Virus record (IMG/VR): IMGVR_UViG_3300021341_000070
Location: 1-35,790 of that record
DNA: 35,790 nucleotides
Strand: one strand, 5' to 3'
Source: a virus
Shown: piece after piece, positions 1,912 to 35,790 of the stretch
Layout: every line of letters begins with the position of its first letter
Numbering within the stretch: the stretch's first letter is position 1
Program-made: the position numbers and the translations under genes
Notes under the pieces: model-generated
The model's database searches: none
Told to the model about the DNA's origin: nothing
What the model saw: the letters and a program-made list of their open reading frames with translations, nothing else

Positions 1912-2286
1912 TTAAGGTCTTTGCTCAATTTCGTTTCCAGACTCTCCAAAGACATCAGTTCTATGTTGAATTCCCCATTCTACCATGGCTCCAAAAATCG
2001 GTTTCAACATGAAGCCCGATTCGGTGAGCTCATATTCAATTCGAACAGGTCTTGAATCATAAATTTTTCTACGAACAATATTGTTCAATTCCAACTCTTT
2101 AAGCTCCTTTGAAAGCATTCTTGGCGTGATCTTCTCAATCACATTCTCCAAATCTTTAAAGCGTTTCGGACCAGATAACAACGTTCCTATTATAGGCGCC
2201 TTCCACTTTCCGTTCATAACGGTTAGGCAGTCGTTTAGGGCTAAAACAGTACTTGTCGGACAATTTAGAATATTATCGAAGTTCAT
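1912..2286 (-). CDS. HxlR-family transcriptional regulator
   Basis: At 124 aa this is the normal length for the HxlR family, which are dimeric winged-helix regulators, several of them redox- or electrophile-sensing. Family hallmarks are visible: an N-terminal Cys9-Pro10, the NGKWKAPIIGTLLSGPKRF segment (about 25-43), ITPRMLSKELKELELNNIV (recognition helix region, about 53-71), and the beta-wing RPVRIEYELTESG. It is divergent from a NAD(P)-binding oxidoreductase, the usual HxlR arrangement, and three palindromes lie between them. A TACATTTG -7 element (2312-2319 complement) is 26 bp upstream of the ATG. It probably regulates itself and its neighbour, with Cys9 as possible sensor (inferred). 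Confidence 0.92.
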   Translation of the reverse strand: MNFDNILNCPTSTVLALNDCLTVMNGKWKAPIIGTLLSGPKRFKDLENVIEKITPRMLSKELKELELNNIVRRKIYDSRPVRIEYELTESGFMLKPIFGAMVEWGIQHRTDVFGESGNEIEQRP

Positions 2287-2306
2287 AATATGCGTCTTTT
2301 ACTTTA

Positions 2307-2374
2307 CTATACAAATGTATAGTACTATTTAATAGTAATTCGCTATACAATATATAGTAAAGGTAGTAGTTTTG
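2307..2374. promoter_or_regulatory. Divergent promoter/operator region between hxlR-type and oxidoreductase genes
   Basis: Three palindromes occur in 51 bp: CTATACAAATGTATAG (2307-2322), ACTATTTAATAGT (2324-2336, perfect around a central T) and CTATACAATATATAG (2343-2357). The first contains the minus-strand -7 element TACATTTG. The third lies where the -33 region would be for the plus-strand promoter, whose -7 element TAGTTTTG is at 2367-2374, 17 bp before the ATG. The layout fits HxlR dimers repressing both promoters. Confidence 0.65.
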
Positions 2375-2391
2375 AAGAAAAATTCTACACA

Positions 2392-3285
2392 ATGATTAAG
2401 AAAATAGCATTTATTGGAGTAACGGGTAATTTGGCACCTTTTACTTACAAAGAGTTGATTAAAGAGGGCATTCATATTAAGGCCCTGGTTAGAAATCGTG
2501 AGAAGGTCAATCAACTAACCGATTTCCCATCCGAGATTGAAATTATTGAAGGAGATTTGAGTAATCTTGATCGTTTGAGGACATTAGTGGATGGCGTTGA
2601 TGCCATCTTTTTAAATCTATCAACTAAAGATGCCAAGGCAACGTTTCAGCCTGAAATTGACGGTGTCAAAAATGTAATAACCGTTGCCAAAGAGAAGAGT
2701 ATCGGTCGAATCTTTCATGTTTCAGCGGTAACGGCTGCATTTCCAGAATTCGCTCAGGGTGCAGACTTCTACCCTAACACAATTAGACAAAAGGGGTATC
2801 GTCTTTTGAAAGAGTCTGGTATTCCTTGTACTTTCTTTCATTGCTCCTGGATTATGGACACTCTTGAATTTGCCATGAGAAAAGGTGACAGCCTTCAAGC
2901 TTTTAAACCTATTCATTATCCAATGTACTGGCTAGCTGGTAAAGACCTTGGGCGCATGGTTGCCAACGCGGTTCTTAAATCTGACCATGAACAGACCAAG
3001 GACTACATTATGCAAGGTAAGGAGGCTATTTCTTTTGAAGATGCGCTTACACGATACGCTGCCACTCATTCCCCAAAACTAAAAGTTCAAATGGCTCCAA
3101 TTTGGTTACTCAAGATAATAGGGCTTTTTGATAAAGAAGCGCGTTTTGCCTCACAACTAGGATCCTTTTTCTCCAACTTTAAAGAAGAATTCAGAGCAGA
3201 ACAAACTTGGAAAGAGCTCGGCGAGCCAGTTCACAGCATTGAAAACTTTATGCTAGAAACACCTACTGTGACTAACAACAACTAA
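2392..3285 (+). CDS. NAD(P)-binding Rossmann oxidoreductase, NmrA/SDR-like
   Basis: This 297-aa protein begins with a beta-strand and the dinucleotide-binding motif GVTGNLAPF (residues 9-17), a variant of the GxxGxxG found in atypical short-chain dehydrogenases. It continues with ALVRNREK, EGDLSN and VDAIFLNLS, the typical NmrA/NAD(P)H-binding pattern for quinone or aldehyde reductase-like proteins. No Tyr-x-x-x-Lys pair is clearly placed, so catalysis or a sensor-only role is unresolved. It is divergent from the HxlR gene, which presumably controls it. It is not a phage structural gene; it looks like stress-response cargo carried by the element. Confidence 0.88.
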   Translation: MIKKIAFIGVTGNLAPFTYKELIKEGIHIKALVRNREKVNQLTDFPSEIEIIEGDLSNLDRLRTLVDGVDAIFLNLSTKDAKATFQPEIDGVKNVITVAKEKSIGRIFHVSAVTAAFPEFAQGADFYPNTIRQKGYRLLKESGIPCTFFHCSWIMDTLEFAMRKGDSLQAFKPIHYPMYWLAGKDLGRMVANAVLKSDHEQTKDYIMQGKEAISFEDALTRYAATHSPKLKVQMAPIWLLKIIGLFDKEARFASQLGSFFSNFKEEFRAEQTWKELGEPVHSIENFMLETPTVTNNN

Positions 3286-10532: not shown

Positions 10533-11036
10533 CTACGCGGCTTCTGGGCCGCCGCCACTATGGTCAGTGAAAAGCGTGATTTTTCGCACTTTTCTGAGCC
10601 TATAATTGCTTTTTTTTAGTGCATCGTAGGTTAAAAGCTCATCAATCTCAAATTGGCGCAAAAAATCATAGATACTCTCGATCTCTTTTTCATTGTATTT
10701 ACGCTTGGCGAAGAGTACACGATCGAGTAATAATTCATTAAGTAGCTTATGTAAGAATTGATTAAAGACGACCACATTCTGTGCACTAATGGCAATCTCA
10801 CCTCTACTGAGTAAGCGGGAACTAAGTTTGAACTGTAACTGGTCACAGTATTCTGCATTGAGCCGATATTCGTTTCGGTCAGGCATATTCATTTTGCCGA
10901 CCAGCATCATTCGGAGCACGTAGCAGATAATACCACCAGTGGTAAGGTCTAAAACGCCATCCTCATCGCAGTTTTCTAAGAGAAGCGCAAACTGCTTGAG
11001 GTGGGGCTTGATAGGGATACTTGCGATTATGTTCAT
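10533..11036 (-). CDS. Hypothetical protein, 167 aa, helical
   Basis: A mostly alpha-helical protein (MNIIASIPIKPHLKQFALLL onward) with a basic C-terminal segment (KKSNYRLRKVRKITLF) and a Gly-rich tail. No membrane segment or known motif was seen. It lies between the HEPN-type cargo gene and the structural operon, in the same direction, and starts about 100 bp after the HEPN gene. It could be a phage regulatory or assembly protein; the basic tail is compatible with nucleic-acid contact. Confidence 0.6.
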   Translation of the reverse strand: MNIIASIPIKPHLKQFALLLENCDEDGVLDLTTGGIICYVLRMMLVGKMNMPDRNEYRLNAEYCDQLQFKLSSRLLSRGEIAISAQNVVVFNQFLHKLLNELLLDRVLFAKRKYNEKEIESIYDFLRQFEIDELLTYDALKKSNYRLRKVRKITLFTDHSGGGPEAA

Positions 11037-12213: not shown

Positions 12214-12657
12214 CTAGGTAGGGGGCTTAGGAAGCTTGCCTTTGACGTAAGAGGTGATCGCCGTTTTAACGACTTCCAATATATTGGTACCCGTAATCAC
12301 AGAGATGTTTTCCAGATTAGAATACAACTCCACTAAAGCGATATAGGAAGAAACCAGATACACCAGCCAATCGGTACCCAGCATACTCTTTTCCACAATC
12401 AACACTAGCACAATAGCCATGCTGTAAAAGACGATCTTTTCGACGGTTCGGTATAGTCCTCTGCTAGTAATCTTGTCACCACGCTTTTTGGCTGCTGTAA
12501 GGCCTGTGATCCAGTCGCAGATGACCAATACAATACCTACCGCCAAAAAGCTGGCTACAGGCATCAGGTTAACACCTATCCATCCGAGGATAATAGAAGA
12601 AATAGCTTTCCATCCATGTGCCTTTGCTAAGGCCACTAATAATTGCTCAAAACTCAT
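12214..12657 (-). CDS. Holin, phage_holin_4-type
   Basis: The 147-aa form starting MSFEQLLVALAKAHGWKAIS is preferred; an in-frame ATG at 12681 would add eight residues. Three to four hydrophobic helices are visible: ISSIILGWIGVNLMPVASFL, the segment running VGIVLVICDWITGLTA, and VFYSMAIVLVLIVE followed by WLVYLVSSYIALVEL. The ending SNLENISVITG matches the ENxxxIG region of the toxin-secretion/lysis holin family (Phage_holin_4_1). It would permeabilise the inner membrane at lysis. No endolysin gene is adjacent or elsewhere in the window. Confidence 0.85.
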   Translation of the reverse strand: MSFEQLLVALAKAHGWKAISSIILGWIGVNLMPVASFLAVGIVLVICDWITGLTAAKKRGDKITSRGLYRTVEKIVFYSMAIVLVLIVEKSMLGTDWLVYLVSSYIALVELYSNLENISVITGTNILEVVKTAITSYVKGKLPKPPT

Positions 12658-13179
12658 AAGCCGTTGTTTTGTGCCTCTCATTTCCCTTTGTTTTGCTGTG
12701 AGTGGATATTTGTTCAGGGAATAGGGAGGTAAGATAGAGGTAGACTATGGAGTTATCGAGGACTACCTACAGCACAATATTCCCGGTTAAGACTTCGGCC
12801 TGTTTGATAAGGAGGACATGTACCTTCTCTCATTAACCGCTTGCGAAAAACACTATGCCCTGATATCGCTTTTTGAGTGGACTTTTGGACTTTTGTCTCT
12901 AAGTGTACTGATTATCAATTACTTATATAGTCCACCCCTAGTGGACTCCGGTGGACTATTTCCACTTATTGTGGACTTCTGGACTTTTGGACTATCGTGG
13001 ACTACAAAGTGGACTCCGTAATTAATTGATTCATAGTGTGTTAAACACCGATAGTCCAAAAGTCCACTCCATTTTCCTTTTTTAGCATAGTCTTTTTTTG
13101 GGTTAGTGTTAATTTCTAATAATAAAATATATAATATATATAGGCTGACTTCTGGCTTTCTCCTTGGCCATCCAGGCAT
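12658..13179. other. Intergenic region with repeat cluster, no convincing gene
   Basis: This stretch of about 520 bp between the holin and the 69-aa gene is dominated by the GTGGACT repeat cluster (12875-13070). An AT-rich segment around 13120-13140 is made of TA steps. A short plus-strand frame here crosses the repeats and does not look coding. The unit probably provides promoter and control functions for the holin transcript. Confidence 0.6.
12875..13070. repeat. GTGGACT repeat cluster (direct and inverted copies)
   Basis: Forward GTGGACT occurs at 12877, 12941, 12951, 12971, 12997 and 13009. The inverse AGTCCAC is at 12929 and 13061. Longer related units are GAGTGGACTTTTGGACT (12875-12891), TGGACTTTTGGACTAT (12980-12995) and ATAGTCCAAAAGTCCACTC (13051-13069). 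AGTCCAC/GTGGACT at 12929-12947 forms a small hairpin with a 5-base loop. The 19-mer recurs exactly at 28440-28458. Arrangement upstream of the holin suggests multiple binding sites for one protein. Confidence 0.8.
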
Positions 13180-13208
13180 AAAAAAAGCCCCAGCGGGAAC
13201 GCTGAGGC
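13180..13208 (-). terminator. Rho-independent terminator after the 69-aa gene
   Basis: Read on the minus strand, GCCTCAGCG and CGCTGGGGC form a nine-base stem with one G-T pair around a TTCC loop (13187-13208). A run of seven T follows (13186-13180). It closes the transcript of the two small genes at 13251-13768 upstream of the repeat cluster. Confidence 0.85.
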
Positions 13209-13250
13209 TGAATAAGTCAAAAATATTGACAAACACACAAAAACTAAGAT

Positions 13251-15031: not shown

Positions 15032-15631
15032 TTATTTACCTTTTGTCCATTCAGTATCAATACCATTTTCTTTAAGCCAATTCCTTAAATGGACCCTGAT
15101 TCGATGAATATGACTTCTAACAGTACTTAACTTCATTTCTGTTCTTCCGTTAGTTAGATCCCGCATCCTTATGGCGACATCTAAATCGCTTAGTCCATAT
15201 ATAAAAACTAATTGGTAAATGATTTGCTTTTCTTCACTAAGTTGATTTACCCCATCTAATATCAGACTAGCCAACTCTTTGCCTTGTAATTCTAAGACAG
15301 GGTTTGAACTTGACTTCTTTCTCTGCAGTGGAATTAATGAGTCACTTTGAAAGCTCCCTTTTCTTTTTGAAGAGACTAAAGATTTATGATAATTGGAGAG
15401 AATATTACGTGCCGTAGCTTCAGCAAAGGTTGTAACCTTAGCCTTTCCTCGAAAATCCTTTACAACTGCCCGAGCAGTAGCCTCGAGAGCTTCTTCTCTG
15501 GTGTAGAAGGCTGATTTAGCCACTAGAGGAAATTTCCCATAGACCTTGTAGACAATTTCTCGGATTTCTTGCTTGATCTTCTCATACTCTTCATGGCTTA
15601 TGTCAGGATATAGTTTTCCAGAGTATTCCAT
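15032..15631 (-). CDS. RNA polymerase sigma factor, ECF/sigma-70-like
   Basis: At 199 aa this is the size of ECF sigma factors. The N-terminal half (EATARAVVKDFRGKAKVTTF, with AEATARNILSNYHKS following) matches region 2 with its DNA-melting helix. The C-terminal half (ILDGVNQLSEEKQIIYQLVF and MKLSTVRSHIHRIRVHLRNW) matches region 4 with its HTH. It is followed 3 bp later by the SPOR-tailed membrane gene. It would redirect RNA polymerase, perhaps in response to envelope signals. Its AT-rich composition separates it from the phage structural genes. Confidence 0.85.
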   Translation of the reverse strand: MEYSGKLYPDISHEEYEKIKQEIREIVYKVYGKFPLVAKSAFYTREEALEATARAVVKDFRGKAKVTTFAEATARNILSNYHKSLVSSKRKGSFQSDSLIPLQRKKSSSNPVLELQGKELASLILDGVNQLSEEKQIIYQLVFIYGLSDLDVAIRMRDLTNGRTEMKLSTVRSHIHRIRVHLRNWLKENGIDTEWTKGK

Positions 15632-18582: not shown

Positions 18583-21500
18583 TTAATAAGGTAGTTCTGG
18601 TTTCCTCAGGTCATCATCGGAGTTGATCGGTTGCTTGGCCATGGTGCCAGCATCAAAATCACTGTTAGCCAATAGGAAATACTCCTTGCCACTGCTCTTG
18701 ATCCGCCGGTCCTTACCGGTCGCGGTTGGGTTGAATTCCAACTGGGCATATTTGGTGTATAGCAGGAGGTGTTCCCTGAATTTCTTGGCATCGCAGTATT
18801 TGCGCTCACTGGGGTAATGCTCCAGGAACTTCATGTACAGGTAATTGCGTTCGCAGCGCTGATTGAGGAAGACGCCGGCTGGACTACCGGTGTGATCCGG
18901 CTCCTGATCATAGACCAAACTGGCCCAGTCCAGGAATTTTTCGCCCATCTTCTGGCGCATGCGGCGGCGCTCAATGTCTTGCTCGGGTATCTTGTATTTG
19001 AGGCCGTACTTCAGGTAGACCTGAATGCAGGTGGCGATCCAGTTGTAGAATAGATTCCATTGGTTGTTGTCCCACTCGTGGAAGAGCTGGTATCCGAATT
19101 CATCTCCAACCGTTCGGTATTCGTTGTAGTAGTCACTAAAGGCGATGGTGTATTGGCGACGCTTGAAGCTATTACCCTCGCCATTCAATGCATGGTTAGT
19201 GGTGATGATGAATTTTCGAGGAGGAATCTTGGAACGGCGCTCCCCTTTTGGATTGATGACCAAGCCCGTCGTGATCTGCGAGAAGAGCCATTCGAATGGG
19301 AAGTTGACGCGCACGTCGTCGAATAAAACAATGTGAGTCCGTTCATCCACCAACTCATAGATATGGTTGTCATCCTCGATATTCTTCTTCTTGCCATCAA
19401 TTACCTCGGTGGGTACCAGGTGCTCAAATTGCTTGGCCCAGATACTCTTTCCGGATCCGCCTTGACTTTTCCCCACTTCACTCTCAATACCATCCATGCA
19501 CACCACTGCCTTCATATTCCCATAGTCCAGATAGTCATGCATCACATAGCCGGCCGCGATCATCTTGGTGACAAAGTGGGCACGATGTAACTTAACATCC
19601 TTGTCCGTGAAGGGCTCTGGTTTTTTCTTCTGGGTATAGAGTTTTTGGCCATCTTCTTCTACCAGCTGCTGCGCCTTTTTCCAATGGAACATGCTGGTTC
19701 TATTGTAGAAGTTGGCCATATCGCATTGCTTGGCCGCATCGGTGTATTCCAGCTTCCAATTTTTATCTACCAAGCTCACCTCTATCATAGGCTTTCCGAT
19801 ATAGGTTGGCTCAAAGTCGATGATCTTATTGGCCCAGACATACTTAGGTAAATCGCTCAAGGGCCGCTCTGTGATCTCATCCTTGGTGATCTTCCAGTAC
19901 TTGTTCTTGAAGAACAAGTACATCGAGTTCTTTTCGCTCTCCATGAAAGGCAGCTGCCTTTCGTACATATCATTGAGCTTATCTGGACCCAAATATTGCG
20001 AACCTCCTTTCAACAGCAGATCGAGCACCTTCTTCTCTTCGATCTCCTCCGTGAAGTCGATTACATACTTGCGTATTTTTCTTGGTGTGGTCTCTTTTAC
20101 CACCTTTCCCTGAACGGAGATGAAGCGATACTTGTCCGCGTCATATTCGAACAAACCAAAGCCCCGGTTGCGTAGAAAGTATCGACAGTTGGTGTACTGA
20201 AATTTCCAACTGTAGCGCACTCGCCCACTACTATCCTCTCTAGCTTCCTTTTCCCAATACTGTTCGTGTGGCAATAGCTTCTGAGATAGTTCGAACTTAT
20301 CCTCCTCTTCGTTGTAGCGCCATTTCAGTTGACCTAAGCGAAATTCGTGGAGCTTCTTCAGTTTATCTTTATTATGCTCCATGAAAGCCGGATTGCTATG
20401 CAGCTTCCAGAATTCCTTAATCTTATAGTCGCTGAGTTCTGTGATCTTATAGATGTTCACATACTTCCCCTGGCCATCACGACTGACTCTAGCTGTATCA
20501 AAGTCTTCTTTCAGCTCTCCTTCTTTATCTTTCAGCTCTCTCACTAGCACATCATCGATACCCTTATGGACGGGGTCTTTGCCATGGGCGAAGTAGATAT
20601 TTAGGTAGATGCCAGAGTTGCTATAGGCGTAGAAGTAGGTCCTGAAACGGGAGACGGCTTTAAAGAAGGTACGTGGCCGCTGGTCAGCTGCTTTCCCATT
20701 CTTTACGCTGATATCCTGCCAATCCGAATCCAGTACAAAGACCACATTCACAATGCTGCAGCGCTTGATCAACTGCTCGAAATGATAGGGCATCTCATTG
20801 CTATGTGCGAAGTTGTTGATGCCCATTACCCCTACTGCCGGCAGGCCATGCAAGGCCATCTTATCCGCTTTCTTCTCCCCTTCACAGATGTACAGCGTCT
20901 CCAGGATCACCCCCTGCTTATAGGATTTCAGGATCTCATTCGGGATCCACAAATGAGAACCACTGCCATAAGGACTTTTATACTTGACCGGGTTACCTTT
21001 CTTATCCAGATGTAAACTGGGATTGGCCCAGCGCACGCGAATCAATTGTTGTTTCCGCGTCGGGCTGAGGTTGAAACTGATCGGCTTTCCATTTAGATCC
21101 AGGTAGTGCAGTACCATATCATCCCCAGGAACTACATTCCATAGCCGATCTACGGATGCAGCCTGATATCGATCCGATTCAATCTTAGTAGTAGAGGTTT
21201 TAGCCATCATCCACTTCTGTGACTTGACTGGAATGCCACTCTCCCGCAACTGGCGATCGCGAAACTTCTCCTTTCGATTCTTCTTCTTGGTTTTGGGAGC
21301 AGTAGGTTTCTCTTCCTCAACTGGGATATTGTATCGATCGGCCAAATATATGAGCGCCTCTACATAGGTTTTCCCCATCACATCCGTCAAGAACTTCACT
21401 GCATCCTTTCCAGACTTCTGGCAGCCGGAAAAGCACTTGTAGACCGACTTACCTGGCGTCACGGTAAACTTGTGATTGTGGCAATAGGGACAATCCCCTA

Positions 21501-21618
21501 CCAGACTACTTCCACTCTTCTTTAGGGCAGTAAAATCTTGTATCACCTGATCCAGTACGGCGGCTTCTTTAATCTTCTCAGCTATTTCCTTCGGGATGTA
21601 ATTCTTTGTGTCGAGCAT
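18583..21618 (-). CDS. Primase-helicase: zinc finger, TOPRIM-like and SF3-type ATPase
   Basis: The 1011-aa protein starts MLDTKNYIPKEIAEKIKEAA. Residues 43-66 form a CHC2-type zinc finger (C43, C46, C62, C66). A TOPRIM-like core follows: YICEGEKKADKM near 243 holds the catalytic Glu and VFVLDSDW near 294 the acidic pair. The C-terminal half has a Walker A GGSGKS near 720, a Walker B IVLFDD near 763 and the sensor-type KFIITTNHAL of superfamily 3 helicases. It would prime and unwind phage DNA at the fork. It heads the replication transcript with three small genes behind it. Fusion of all three activities in one chain is typical of phage and plasmid replication proteins. Confidence 0.88.
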   Translation of the reverse strand: MLDTKNYIPKEIAEKIKEAAVLDQVIQDFTALKKSGSSLVGDCPYCHNHKFTVTPGKSVYKCFSGCQKSGKDAVKFLTDVMGKTYVEALIYLADRYNIPVEEEKPTAPKTKKKNRKEKFRDRQLRESGIPVKSQKWMMAKTSTTKIESDRYQAASVDRLWNVVPGDDMVLHYLDLNGKPISFNLSPTRKQQLIRVRWANPSLHLDKKGNPVKYKSPYGSGSHLWIPNEILKSYKQGVILETLYICEGEKKADKMALHGLPAVGVMGINNFAHSNEMPYHFEQLIKRCSIVNVVFVLDSDWQDISVKNGKAADQRPRTFFKAVSRFRTYFYAYSNSGIYLNIYFAHGKDPVHKGIDDVLVRELKDKEGELKEDFDTARVSRDGQGKYVNIYKITELSDYKIKEFWKLHSNPAFMEHNKDKLKKLHEFRLGQLKWRYNEEEDKFELSQKLLPHEQYWEKEAREDSSGRVRYSWKFQYTNCRYFLRNRGFGLFEYDADKYRFISVQGKVVKETTPRKIRKYVIDFTEEIEEKKVLDLLLKGGSQYLGPDKLNDMYERQLPFMESEKNSMYLFFKNKYWKITKDEITERPLSDLPKYVWANKIIDFEPTYIGKPMIEVSLVDKNWKLEYTDAAKQCDMANFYNRTSMFHWKKAQQLVEEDGQKLYTQKKKPEPFTDKDVKLHRAHFVTKMIAAGYVMHDYLDYGNMKAVVCMDGIESEVGKSQGGSGKSIWAKQFEHLVPTEVIDGKKKNIEDDNHIYELVDERTHIVLFDDVRVNFPFEWLFSQITTGLVINPKGERRSKIPPRKFIITTNHALNGEGNSFKRRQYTIAFSDYYNEYRTVGDEFGYQLFHEWDNNQWNLFYNWIATCIQVYLKYGLKYKIPEQDIERRRMRQKMGEKFLDWASLVYDQEPDHTGSPAGVFLNQRCERNYLYMKFLEHYPSERKYCDAKKFREHLLLYTKYAQLEFNPTATGKDRRIKSSGKEYFLLANSDFDAGTMAKQPINSDDDLRKPELPY

Positions 21619-24814: not shown

Positions 24815-27637
24815 ATGGGGATTCGTTCCAGGTGGGCATTAAAGGATAATTTGCAGATTCTTTGTGATCTGATAGGTTGGAAGATCGACACCTACAAGAC
24901 TAGTGACTTGGACAAGTATTCAGTATATCATGGTCCAGCAGGAAGTGATATTCCAATTTCTCTTTTAACATTGGCTGAAAGGGCTGATACTCCACAGTTA
25001 GTTTTAAATCATGTGGTGGCGATTGTCCATCTTGTAGTATTTGCCAATGCCCTGGACCGCTACAAAATCGACTTGAATGTCTCGGGCCAAACTAAAACTC
25101 AGTTTCAAGATAAGTTTCAAGAACTGATTCAAAAAGGAGAGATATTAGACTTTAAGGAGAAAGACCTAGAGGAGTCTCAATTATATAAAGATTACTATTT
25201 CCTTTTTTATGACCTGTTGAATGAACTTGACCTTTCAAGTGGGCAAAAAGTTAGAGTTTATAACTATCACAATGATAACTATGGGGCCAAATTTTGGAGG
25301 CTCATAACAGAGTATAAAGGCGGCCTGTCCAGGAAAATTGAAGGATTTCTACAAGGGGAGCAATTACAGGCAAGAATTCGAAACCTGAGCAGGGAAAGGT
25401 ATCTGGTTGATTTAAAGAATCAATACACAGAAATCACACTAAACGATGAAAAAGGACTAACCTTAAATCATATATATCAAGAGCCGAACTACAGCATCTT
25501 CAAAAAATGCCTCCTAGATGAAGCACATAAGAATATAGCCAAGGATAAAGTTTTTGTTAATCCAAAACTAATCCATCTAGCCAATAATGTGCATTCATTT
25601 GTCTTGAGCTGGCTAAGGTCCAGCACTAAACTTAGCAAACTTAAAAATGCTAAGGCAAGGATACTCCTGCTATATGGTTATCCTGGTCAAGGGAAAACCT
25701 CTTTTTGTAAGCGCTTGGTTTATGATTTATTGCGTGCCCAGGACTTCGCTAAACCCTTGTTTATGCTTAGGTTACGGGAATTAAGTGAACCAATAAAACT
25801 TAAATCGGAGGTTTTAGCTACTATCAGCCATCACTTGAACGAGGAATATCAATTGGAGACGAGCAAAAATAGCCTCAAAAGTTCTCTCCTTATCCTAGAT
25901 GGTTTGGACGAACTCCTCATGAAAAACAAGCTCCAGAACAATGATATCGAGGATATCTTTAGAGCCATTGTTGATGAAGTAGAGCGCTATAAAGACCTAA
26001 AGATCATTATCACCTCAAGATATGGTTACCTCAATTTAGAGCGATTGCCAGCCAATGATCTTTTGATAGCTAGATTGGATGAATTTGAATTAGAACAGCA
26101 GTTAAACTGGCTGAAGGCTTATCAAACCTTCTACCCCAAAGTTTGGCTCACTAAGGAAAAAATTACAGAAATCAGGGAGAATGGTGGGTTCATTGATGAA
26201 TTGATTCGCCAGCCAATCTTACTCCATATGATTGCCTCGCTTGATCAAGATTTCGTAGAAGGAGTAGGGAATAGGGCTGGTGTTTATTCCGCACTTTTTG
26301 ATCAGATCACCAACCCCGTCCGCTGGAAGGATGCGCAAATTAAGATCTTGAAGGGCTTAGATACTGAGGATCTTAGAGGAACCTTAAGAGAAGCGGCCTT
26401 CCATATCTTTCAATCGGGGGAGGGGTACATCCATAAAACAGGCTTGGAAAAATTACCCGCAGTTCTGGAACTTAGGGAGAAATTGCAAAAGCAAGACAGC
26501 TATTTTCGAGAGGCTTTAAAAATGATGATGGTAGCCTTCTACTTTCAAGAGCGGCCAAAAAGCCGACGATTGAGGAGTGATGATGAAGATTATGACTATG
26601 CAATAGAGTTCCTTCATAAGTCGCTGCAAGAATATTTAACAGCAGAGTACATCTGGGAAACTGTAAAGGGAGAATTGATCGACAAGAATAGAAAAAAGAA
26701 GTATATCAAGGAATCTGAGGCTGAAATACTAGAATTCTTACAGGAAATCTTTGGTAAACAACCTATGTCGCTTGAAGTTGCTAATTATTTGGTGGAGATT
26801 ATTGAGAATGATAAAAATGATGAAGAAAAGCAAGAACTAGCGAAGCGATTGGAGTATGTAATTGACTATGGTTTACAGAAGCAATTCGTCTATACCTTCG
26901 ATGCAGAGAAACAAGATTCGGTAATGGATCTCAGCAATTGGATTTTTTATGGATATTGGACGATCTACGCTCATTTGAAAGAGAAAATTGATTTATTTGG
27001 GGAAGGGAAGGAAGAGAGAAGAGGTAGTATTGTGTCAATTCTGCAATTCTTCCAGTACAAGAAAACAGCATTGAAGCCTTTGCGATTGGTTGGCGCCGAC
27101 CTCCGCGTCGCCGACCTCCGCGTCGCCTACCTCCGCGACGCCTACCTCAGCGGCGCCTACCTCAGCGTCGCCAACCTCCGCGGCGCCGACCTCCGCGTTG
27201 CCGACCTCAGCGGCGCCAACCTCAGCGTCGCCAACCTCAGCGGCGCCGACCTCCGCGGCGGCGACCTCCGCGGCGCCGACCTCAGCCACGCCTACCTCAG
27301 CCGCGCCGACCTCAGCGGCGCCGACCTCAGCCACGCCAACCTCAGCGGCGCCGACCTCAGCCACGCCTACCTCAGCGGCGCCTACCTCCGCGACGCCGAC
27401 CTCAGCGGCGCCGACCTCAACGTCGCCGATCTCAGCGGCGCCTACCTCCGCCGCGCCGACCTCAGCGGCGCCGACCTCCGCGGCGCCGATCTCAGCCGCG
27501 CCGACCTCCGCCGCGCCGACCTCAACGGTGTTAGGAATGCGACTATCAAACAACTGGCTTCTGCTAGGTCTTTAGAGGGAGCAAGAGGGTTACCTAGTAA
27601 ATGGATGGTAAAGCTTAGAAAGCTAATGGGAAGTTAG
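24815..27637 (+). CDS. NACHT-domain STAND NTPase with C-terminal pentapeptide repeats, 940 aa
   Basis: The N-terminal 260 residues have no recognised domain and may carry the effector or a protein-protein interface. The NACHT core starts with Walker A GYPGQGKTS (about 288-296), Walker B LLILDGLDEL (about 358-367) with the NACHT-type D-G-L-D-E, and sensor KIIITSRYGY (near 394-403). The following helical region includes FLHKSLQEYLTAEYIW, a conserved STAND feature. Residues about 757-905 are pentapeptide repeats A(D/N/Y)L(S/R)x forming a right-handed beta-helix, in place of the leucine-rich or TPR sensors found elsewhere. Bacterial NACHT proteins are established anti-phage sensors; this one's role in a prophage is inferred. 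Confidence 0.88.
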   Translation: MGIRSRWALKDNLQILCDLIGWKIDTYKTSDLDKYSVYHGPAGSDIPISLLTLAERADTPQLVLNHVVAIVHLVVFANALDRYKIDLNVSGQTKTQFQDKFQELIQKGEILDFKEKDLEESQLYKDYYFLFYDLLNELDLSSGQKVRVYNYHNDNYGAKFWRLITEYKGGLSRKIEGFLQGEQLQARIRNLSRERYLVDLKNQYTEITLNDEKGLTLNHIYQEPNYSIFKKCLLDEAHKNIAKDKVFVNPKLIHLANNVHSFVLSWLRSSTKLSKLKNAKARILLLYGYPGQGKTSFCKRLVYDLLRAQDFAKPLFMLRLRELSEPIKLKSEVLATISHHLNEEYQLETSKNSLKSSLLILDGLDELLMKNKLQNNDIEDIFRAIVDEVERYKDLKIIITSRYGYLNLERLPANDLLIARLDEFELEQQLNWLKAYQTFYPKVWLTKEKITEIRENGGFIDELIRQPILLHMIASLDQDFVEGVGNRAGVYSALFDQITNPVRWKDAQIKILKGLDTEDLRGTLREAAFHIFQSGEGYIHKTGLEKLPAVLELREKLQKQDSYFREALKMMMVAFYFQERPKSRRLRSDDEDYDYAIEFLHKSLQEYLTAEYIWETVKGELIDKNRKKKYIKESEAEILEFLQEIFGKQPMSLEVANYLVEIIENDKNDEEKQELAKRLEYVIDYGLQKQFVYTFDAEKQDSVMDLSNWIFYGYWTIYAHLKEKIDLFGEGKEERRGSIVSILQFFQYKKTALKPLRLVGADLRVADLRVAYLRDAYLSGAYLSVANLRGADLRVADLSGANLSVANLSGADLRGGDLRGADLSHAYLSRADLSGADLSHANLSGADLSHAYLSGAYLRDADLSGADLNVADLSGAYLRRADLSGADLRGADLSRADLRRADLNGVRNATIKQLASARSLEGARGLPSKWMVKLRKLMGS
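27092..27530 (+). repeat. 15-nt GC-rich tandem repeat encoding the pentapeptides
   Basis: About 29 units of a 15-nt consensus GCCGACCTCAGCGGC (phase arbitrary) follow in tandem. Variation is confined mainly to the second and fourth codons of each unit, and nearly every codon ends in C. Composition is far more GC-rich than the rest of the gene. The near-identity at DNA level indicates recent or ongoing expansion. Frames on both strands stay open as a by-product. Confidence 0.9.
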
Positions 27638-27756: not shown

Positions 27757-28311
27757 CTAGCTTGGGAAGGGAAGGGCGGTCTGGCCAGTAAAGCGTTTCT
27801 CTCTAACTTCAGCAAGCGATAAGTCAATCTTCTTCAGATCAGACTTTAATTTTTTCAATTCGTCATTCTTCTCTGCAATCTCATCAACGGTATCCGACTT
27901 CTTCATGATCAAGTCCAATTCATACTTGTTCTCCTCTTGGAATACCTCAATCAACTTATACATGGAAAGCATCTCTTGACGAAGCCAAGCCATGAACGCA
28001 TATTGCTTGTCTACTGAGCCTTCTCTACGTTTGTTTTGAGAGATACTAGTAAGCCAAGCAAATAGGTCAAACATAGGCAAACATCTCATTTCATATTGCT
28101 TCCCATCAGCTCCAGTTGTATAGTCTAGACTATATAACTGACTAAAGATTTTGTGCTTTTTTAGCCAGTTATCTTGAGTAGGGAAGTCAACACCAATGAT
28201 TTGACATACTGTTTTAACAGGCACCATTCGATGGCCATCAGTGATAGGACAAGAAATAGAAGTGCCATGATAGTCGAGGTCGACTATCGCAAGATCTTTT
28301 ACTACATTCAT
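27757..28311 (-). CDS. P22-type antirepressor (phage antirepressor N-terminal domain)
   Basis: Residues 5-120 match the P22_AR_N pattern: MVPVKTVCQIIGVDFPTQDN, a Leu/Lys stretch, and MRCLPMFDLFAWLTSISQNK. A C-terminal coiled coil (about 135-170, ELDLIMKKSDTVDEIAEKND) replaces the usual Ant domain, so it is a short version at 184 aa. Antirepressors bind and inactivate prophage repressors. It converges on the NACHT gene and lies upstream of nothing on its strand before the switch, so it may act on the nearby XRE repressor. The 28.4-kb repeat site lies 130 bp upstream of its start. Confidence 0.78.
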   Translation of the reverse strand: MNVVKDLAIVDLDYHGTSISCPITDGHRMVPVKTVCQIIGVDFPTQDNWLKKHKIFSQLYSLDYTTGADGKQYEMRCLPMFDLFAWLTSISQNKRREGSVDKQYAFMAWLRQEMLSMYKLIEVFQEENKYELDLIMKKSDTVDEIAEKNDELKKLKSDLKKIDLSLAEVREKRFTGQTALPFPS

Positions 28312-28390: not shown

Positions 28391-28458
28391 GTGGACTTTT
28401 TAATTTGTAATTGATTAATTATCAATAGTGCTTTTCTTGATAGTCCAAAAGTCCACTC
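28391..28458. repeat. Second copy of the GTGGACT repeat, inverted pair around AT-rich core
   Basis: GTGGACTTTT (28391-28400) and ATAGTCCAAAAGTCCACTC (28440-28458) face each other across a 39-bp AT-rich core containing TTGATTAATTATCAATA. The 19-mer is identical to that at 13051-13069. It is upstream of the antirepressor and downstream of the nuclease gene. Confidence 0.8.
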
Positions 28459-34034: not shown

Positions 34035-35434
34035 TAGTCAGTGTTTTGCACATTCTCACCCGTCACCAGCCCAGTCTCCTGTTCATTGGTGGTGGTGTGG
34101 AAAGTATGATCGATATAGAAAGTCACATCCCAGGCGGGATCGGTGAGTCGATTGAAATTGGCCACGAACTGCAGCTGCTCCAGGATCATCTCCTGATCGA
34201 AAGTGTTGTTAGTGATCTCAGTATTGAAAACCTCGCGCTTATCGCTTCCACTGCCGGCACCCATCTTTCCACCCTCCGGAGCAAGGCCTACCATACTAGG
34301 ATGGCCACCCAAACCTTGGACGACTTGTGCATCACTTTTCTCAGAAGAGGGTACCCAGCTATCCTTTTTGATTTTATCATCGATAGCCACGATCTCGATC
34401 TTGCCTTTCTCCCCATTCACGCCATCATTTTGGAAGATGGTCGAAATGGAAACAAAAGCATTCTTTGTGCCTGAAAGTTTAGCGTTGATATCATCGACTA
34501 GCTCATCGATCTTATCCTGCCGGCCTTTATCCGTCATCGTTTGCCAGCTATCCCGGTACCGAATGGTGAAGTAATCCTCAGGGATGAGGATCTGATACTT
34601 GAGTCGCACCTGGTTATGCATCATGGCATGTACAACTTCGGATACGGCCTTGGACACATCCATCCAACCCCCATCCCGGAAGAGGCCCAGCCAAAAGGGG
34701 AGGGCATAGGGAAAAGAACCAGGTGTTTTCAAGCGACTATGCCAAGCGAATTTGAAACCCGGTAGCTTATCAATGAAGGAAGCCCCGCCAAACTTTGGGC
34801 AGAGATAAATGGCATTGATCCGATCGGGATCCACATTGCCACGGCCCAGGCTGAAGTCGGCAGAGTAGAGTAGGAAGTCAGTAGCAAAGGTGGCAGGGTT
34901 CTGCAGGCTGAGACGGCAGTATTCCGCTTCCTTATGAAAGATGTTGGTGATCTGATCCTTACGTTTATTGAGGATCATCTCACTGAAGGTATTCATAAAG
35001 AAGCGATAATTGATCAGTTGCGGCTTGAGCCATTCATTGCCCAGGAAGTTCTCCTGGATGAAGTTCTCAATCTTTGGTTCAAAATGTCGCTCAATCGTGC
35101 CACTTTCTTGACGCTGTCGGTTGCTATAGTAAGCTATCCCATTCCCATAAGCCATGCGCACCAGGTCGTAGATGGTTCGTCCAGCGATGGCCACATTGAA
35201 TACCCGCTCGCGGATTCTTCGAGGCAGGTCATCATTCCCCAGTCGATCTCCCCAAGGTGCCCACATGAAGCCCGTCTGCGTCTCTTCGGGTTGAATATTG
35301 ATGGTCGGCTTGGCCTGGGTATCCGTACCAAAAACAGGAGCGAAGCCTGCCGAAAATATTTTAGTGTAACTGAGGTGGGCTTTAGCTTGCCCATTATGTT
35401 CCACCACATCGATGATCGTATGGGTATCACTCAT
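34034..35434 (-). CDS. Portal protein
   Basis: At 466 aa it is of usual portal length and lies in the structural module. The N-terminal region contains an Arg-rich helix (RLGNDDLPRRIRERVFNVAI) and the middle has the long helical stem region (MDVSKAVSEVVHAMMHNQVR, about 255-280). Near the end, GLGGHPSMVGLAPEGGKMGA followed by GSGSDKREVFNTEI resembles the Gly-rich tunnel-loop/crown region of portal proteins. Portals form the dodecameric DNA channel at the capsid vertex. It starts by ATGA overlap with the 119-aa gene. Its distance from the terminase is unusual (see findings). Confidence 0.78.
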   Translation of the reverse strand: MSDTHTIIDVVEHNGQAKAHLSYTKIFSAGFAPVFGTDTQAKPTINIQPEETQTGFMWAPWGDRLGNDDLPRRIRERVFNVAIAGRTIYDLVRMAYGNGIAYYSNRQRQESGTIERHFEPKIENFIQENFLGNEWLKPQLINYRFFMNTFSEMILNKRKDQITNIFHKEAEYCRLSLQNPATFATDFLLYSADFSLGRGNVDPDRINAIYLCPKFGGASFIDKLPGFKFAWHSRLKTPGSFPYALPFWLGLFRDGGWMDVSKAVSEVVHAMMHNQVRLKYQILIPEDYFTIRYRDSWQTMTDKGRQDKIDELVDDINAKLSGTKNAFVSISTIFQNDGVNGEKGKIEIVAIDDKIKKDSWVPSSEKSDAQVVQGLGGHPSMVGLAPEGGKMGAGSGSDKREVFNTEITNNTFDQEMILEQLQFVANFNRLTDPAWDVTFYIDHTFHTTTNEQETGLVTGENVQNTD

Positions 35435-35790
35435 GCCACCACGATTTTGTTATTGAATGTTATGACCAATGGCGGATGGATCTTCCGCCGCTCACCAGTA
35501 GGATGGCCATTCACCAACAATTGAATATTACGTGTGTACCATTTGTGGTGATTGGGGGCACGCTTGAGGGTCTCTAGTTTAGCCTTCTTTCGTTCGATGG
35601 AAGTTGGTGCTCGATCCACCTCGCTCGCCTTTTTGGCAACCTTAGTCGTCAGCACCAATACTGCCTCACCATAGGTATGCACTTTACCGCCCTTCTTGCG
35701 TTGCCGATCGAAGGTGACAAAAGTGATGGAGAAGGGATCTCCCGATTCCATTTGCGACAGCATGGCCTTCACTGTGATTTGATTGGTCAT
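35431..35790 (-). CDS. Small structural-module protein, 119 aa
   Basis: The start codon is the last three bases of the window, so an upstream start cannot be ruled out, but MTNQITVKAMLSQMESGDPF is a sensible N-terminus. The protein is basic (AKKASEVDRAPTSIERKKAK) with a mixed strand/helix profile and no membrane segment. It overlaps the portal gene by four bases (ATGA), indicating translational coupling to head-assembly functions. No named family is assigned. Small genes of this type often precede the portal in Bacteroidota phages. Confidence 0.6.
   Translation of the reverse strand: MTNQITVKAMLSQMESGDPFSITFVTFDRQRKKGGKVHTYGEAVLVLTTKVAKKASEVDRAPTSIERKKAKLETLKRAPNHHKWYTRNIQLLVNGHPTGERRKIHPPLVITFNNKIVVA

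Follow-up and report, generated by a model that had tools for sequence, protein, structure and literature searches.

A repeat array of near-constant layout downstream of the primase-helicase gene in Bacteroidota phages: a putative replication origin

Results

Gene context of the array

The window, i.e. the whole stretch of 35,790 nucleotides analysed here, is a 35.8-kb virus fragment (IMG/VR record IMGVR_UViG_3300021341_000070). On the minus strand the order is early region, terminator, repeat array, holin and structural genes; TerL, portal and tape measure come after the structural genes, wrapping round the record ends. The features are as follows.

12214–12681, minus strand: holin, Phage_holin_4_1 (PF05105), the first clear gene downstream of the array (context)
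12875–13070, minus strand: array, putative origin core, with 12 AGTCCA/TGGACT sites, an outward-lying tandem pair at each end and eight inner sites
12878–12891, plus strand: outer tandem pair, sites 12878–12883 and 12886–12891, 8 bp apart
12913–12925, plus strand: IHF-consensus site TATCAATTACTTA, a consensus enriched in the arrays
12929–13015, both strands: inner cluster of eight sites, 12929–12934 on the minus strand and seven on the plus strand (12942–12947, 12952–12957, 12972–12977, 12980–12985, 12988–12993, 12998–13003, 13010–13015)
13019–13031, minus strand: IHF-consensus site AATCAATTAATTA, likewise of the enriched consensus
13053–13066, minus strand: outer tandem pair, sites 13053–13058 and 13061–13066, core of the repeated 20-mer at 13050–13069
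13128–13142, no strand assigned: TATATAATATATATA tract on the primase side of the array, its start 72 bp away, a putative duplex-unwinding element
13186–13209, minus strand: intrinsic terminator of the early operon
15032–15631, minus strand: sigma-like gene, in the early region with small genes
18583–21618, minus strand: primase-helicase, proposed initiator, with CHC2 zinc finger, DUF3854, SF3 helicase and C-terminal winged-helix-like domain (Pfam, AlphaFold/Foldseek)
27757–28311, minus strand: P22_AR_N antirepressor, downstream of the isolated unit (context)
28391–28457, minus strand: isolated partial unit upstream of the antirepressor, in which an outer pair and one site enclose an AT-rich centre

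No recognisable integrase is found in the window. About 12 kb of tail genes, present in the Flavilitoribacter prophage described below, are absent between the record ends (1–1173 and 35431–35790), and the record thus appears to be a fragment that was opened among the tail genes. Positions 10533–11036 and their homologues form an unannotated family with no Pfam match, which is usually the first conserved late gene and is present in all array-bearing phages examined for it. Between TerL and the next tail gene (1912–3285) are an HxlR-type regulator and an NmrA-like oxidoreductase of bacterial character; homologues were not found in related phages and thus the pair is probably cargo. In the lysogeny region, next to an HTH repressor, 24815–27637 encodes a NACHT/AAA protein with a long tail of pentapeptide repeats. 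It is a candidate STAND-type defence gene, with weak PADLOC matches.

Sites and layout of the array

The window contains 12 copies of GTGGACT, where 2.46 are expected, and none of 100 shuffles gets to 12. Eight of the copies are found within 12877–13067, six on the plus and two on the minus strand, in agreement with the first-pass annotation, which had listed at least eight GTGGACT/AGTCCAC units in both orientations at 12875–13070. Together with four further cores they give 12 TGGACT cores on both strands in 190 bp, many of them paired in tandem at 8-bp spacing. The outer arms of the array are approximately 42 bp, or four helical turns.

The 19-mer ATAGTCCAAAAGTCCACTC at 13051–13069 has an exact second copy at 28440–28458, as had been reported, and the full shared stretch is the 20 nt GATAGTCCAAAAGTCCACTC, at 13050–13069 and 28439–28458 (15.4 kb apart). 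The same annotation described two clusters upstream of lysis and switching genes. The genes are as described (holin and antirepressor), but the place at 28.4 kb holds one partial unit, made up of a pair and one further site, and not a second cluster. A scan of IMG/VR with the window 19-mer gave one other match, which looks like chance; it sits within a coding sequence of an unrelated contig (L005).

The Flavilitoribacter prophage

Relatives by TerL consist of two viral contigs and prophages, the closest prophage being in Flavilitoribacter nigricans (76% TerL). This prophage is spread over two assembly contigs. Its primase, 69% identical to that of the window, is at the end of the other contig, and the joining of the two contigs is thus by inference. 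The Flavilitoribacter array occupies the same gap as the window array, with GGGACT in place of GGACT. Positions of the 12 sites are identical in the two arrays (0<, 8<, 50>, 62>, 72>, 80>, 88>, 108>, 118>, 132<, 174>, 182>) and all 60 core bases are conserved. The sixth site base is A in 12 of 12 window sites and C in 12 of 12 Flavilitoribacter sites (AGTCCA to AGTCCC). Bases between the sites show a 40% match, where shuffling gives an expected 27%. A fixed layout with all 12 sites switched is the pattern expected of one binding protein with changed specificity. A search of residues unique to the Flavilitoribacter primase showed no obvious specificity switch that would explain the difference.

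Scatter of the motif through the chromosome like a generic repeat had been put forward as a test, and in the 11.3-Mb Flavilitoribacter host genome the corresponding 15-mer, with one mismatch allowed, is confined to the array. Across IMG/VR the spaced pattern AGTCC-N5-AGTCC-N3-AGTCC-N3-AGTCC gives four matches, all arrays of this kind, one of which (L039) is the Flavilitoribacter prophage itself.

Arrays in other Bacteroidota phages

Arrays of the same style are found in dozens of Bacteroidota phages downstream of the primase-helicase gene, with the layout kept and the letters rewritten. They are displayed by the cultured phages Leef_1 (GATTACA), laban6-1 and 6H (both CTCAAC) and BT-TP2 (GGTTAC), and by integrated prophages of four bacterial genera. 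Prophages with such an array include those of Arenibacter (GTTACA), Tenacibaculum (TTCAAC), Polaribacter (ATTACA in P. filamentus) and a Saprospiraceae MAG (AGTCCAG). Further motifs are GTACAA in MT835542 and GTACTA in G001. Arrays of the AGTCC class usually show 41–43 bp arms with predicted IHF bends, 8-bp tandem pairs and a TA tract on the initiator side.

A primase-guided scan of IMG/VR gave 79 primase loci, of which 77 were tested. In 35 of the 77 the best 6-mer cluster downstream of the primase, outside a long open reading frame, beats all 20 shuffles, the shuffles being first-order Markov samples and some of the loci coming from near-identical phages. The other 42 are without an array by this strict criterion (too degenerate, outside the DNA covered, or absent). 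All arrays found lie downstream of a gene for a zinc-finger/SF3 primase-helicase, at distances of 0 to 9.5 kb; some start 100–210 bp past the primase gene, and those of laban6-1 and the Saprospiraceae MAG are right at the gene end.

The IHF consensus WATCAANNNNTTR has 19 occurrences in 18 arrays (13 arrays carry it) versus 0.48 in shuffles. In the 36 scan-derived arrays the figure is 13, versus 1.2 expected from background. TATATAT is found within 180 bp on the primase (upstream) side in 27 of 51 arrays, mostly 54–86 bp off, and on the downstream side in 2 of 51; in background windows the figure is 2.7%.

Phage-encoded genes of the HU/IHF family are situated between primase and array in three relatives (L070 13072–13344, L033 11870–12145, L045 18228–18515); the phage-encoded HU genes are those of Flavilitoribacter, G003 and G006. 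They are suggestive, but a broader scan showed no further HU genes. Recombinase genes are also found close to the array (L042 13799–14395, L070 13779–14402, L077 28136–28999); these near-array recombinases are of the serine type in two phages and of the tyrosine type in Leef_1.

The protein that tracks the motif

Partial Mantel tests were used to relate similarity of the array motif to protein identity. The motif follows the primase: the partial r is 0.55 when TerS is controlled for and 0.48 when the first late protein is, with p 0.0005 in both cases. Once the primase is controlled for, TerS shows no association (p 0.14, partial r 0.06) and that of the first late protein is weak (p 0.013, partial r 0.11), and both were set aside as binders of the array. 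At the median, the first late gene is 126 bp from the array and the primase 2.4 kb; since the first late gene is the nearer, physical closeness does not explain the motif-primase association. The first-pass annotation had suggested that the binder may be the sigma factor or the product of one of the small HTH genes, but the sigma-like and HTH genes are absent from the shared set of the other array phages and these candidates were dropped. No shared regulator gene was found among array-bearing phages besides primase-type proteins.

Within the primase, independent motif signal comes only from the SF3 part (690–870) and the C-terminus (885–1000), with p 0.001 for each. The primase part is of the bacterial type; its CHC2 zinc finger has a clear match (PF01807, 1.4e-16) and the DUF3854 match is weak. 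An AlphaFold model of residues 560–1011 has a pLDDT of 92.5, and Foldseek places it with the SF3 helicases NrS-1, poxvirus D5/E5, the SaPI5 primase-helicase and AAV Rep40 (E about 1e-6 to D5/E5, NrS-1 and SaPI5). The C-terminal domain (pLDDT 90) has best fold matches that are mostly winged-helix regulators, weak, at E 0.08 or worse.

Discussion

The array is probably a replication origin to which the phage's own primase-helicase binds, in the manner of P4 alpha or PICI Rep/ori and with a different layout. Binding of the primase, melting, initiation and origin activity are inferred. Iterons of a replication system were among several candidates of the first-pass annotation, and this reading is the best supported here. 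The extremes of GC skew give no consistent pointer to the array.

P4 carries octamer-like sites in both orientations, plus a second site elsewhere. The window array differs from P4 ori1-crr in geometry, in its IHF sites and in the position of the TA tract, and among the array phages a counterpart of the P4 second site (28391–28457) is seen in the window phage alone. P4 alpha binds origin repeats by a winged helix, unwinds and primes (PMC4234260), and the window protein likewise combines a primase part, an SF3 helicase and a C-terminal domain (in P4 a Toprim-type primase and a winged helix; PMC4234260). In PICIs the origin is the region 3′ of rep, with two iteron sets and an AT-rich region, and the islands differ in iteron sequence (PMC6092414). 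Shared with the PICI/SaPI Rep-ori are an SF3 initiator (SaPI5 is among the best fold matches), short iterons, an iteron array 3′ of the initiator gene and an AT-rich melting region, here putative. However, the two iteron sets of PICIs flank the AT-rich region, whereas the window phage displays a single compact symmetric array; arrays of the window type carry IHF-consensus sites, with the TA tract outside and on the primase side in most; and the carriers here are full-size tailed phages of Bacteroidota.

In 22 of 24 loci the array immediately precedes the first conserved late gene, ending at most 300 bp from it, and it comes after the early-operon terminator. This position also fits a late control region, in which a phage regulator on the array would turn on the late (holin/structural) operon after early expression, possibly coupled to replication. 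This reading is unlikely. In the Saprospiraceae MAG prophage, laban6-1, 6H, L085 and L131 about 1 kb at most separates the array from the primase gene, with the first late gene 2.6–9 kb further. That the array stays by the primase despite such a distance also speaks against the earlier suggestion of a late-gene or SOS-like regulator site tied to lysis and switching. The weak association of the motif with the first late protein and the failure to find a common regulator apart from primase-type proteins likewise count against late control, and twelve sites, IHF sites and a TA tract exceed the requirements of a promoter. A dual role, origin and late control, is possible.

Lambda cosB consists of repeated R sites mixed with an IHF site, and lambda attP and cosB both resemble the array in having repeated protein sites interleaved with IHF sites, which are predicted here. 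A cos or pac packaging site, at which TerS would bind the sites together with IHF as gpNu1 does at cosB, is nevertheless improbable. TerS is found in all array phages, but motif similarity does not follow it, and G007 retains motif and layout with a TerS just 16% identical. Leef_1 has cos 3′ ends predicted by PhageTerm (PMC8776804), and its record begins just past TerL, 8 kb from its array; cos would lie there on the assumption that the record starts at it. An attP or resolution site of a site-specific recombinase would account for the arm-like tandem pairs with IHF sites and for the recombinase genes near the array in G005, Flavilitoribacter and Leef_1. It is very improbable. The Flavilitoribacter array is intact and internal to the integrated prophage, with the integrase at tRNA-Leu at the far end, and thus the array is not attP. 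In addition, no recombinase is encoded near the array in the window or in most other array phages; where one does occur, it belongs to one of two unrelated kinds. A matching recombinase is absent.

For the array as an origin, a mechanism may be outlined. The primase-helicase (18583–21618) would recognise the 7–8 bp sites singly, probably through its C-terminal winged-helix domain and the SF3 part. IHF or HU, from the host or in some relatives phage-encoded, would bend the two 42-bp arms and bring the outer tandem pairs onto the inner cluster. The complex so formed could open the TATATA tract on the primase side, where the helicase would be loaded and prime synthesis.

A literature search of open-licence papers gave no description of such arrays or origins, and for tailed phages of Bacteroidota, one of the major phyla of gut and sea, replication origins appear undescribed in the literature searched. 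With some reserve we lean toward a single origin class in Bacteroidota siphophages of several families (Helgolandviridae, Duneviridae and others), with a near-constant geometry and a joint change of sequence at all sites, which would give each phage a private initiator-origin code; in the window phage the initiator would also control the antirepressor through the unit at 28.4 kb. The array with IHF sites and TA tract 3′ of an SF3 primase offers a recognisable signature along with a candidate initiator. Natural pairs that differ by one base at all 12 sites make initiator-origin recognition and its evolution testable in cultured phages.

The unit at 28391–28457 may have an auxiliary role, as a further replication element comparable to P4 crr or as a tie between antirepressor expression and the initiator. 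Among the arrays checked for outside pairs, a pair outside the array is found in the window phage and in L142 only.
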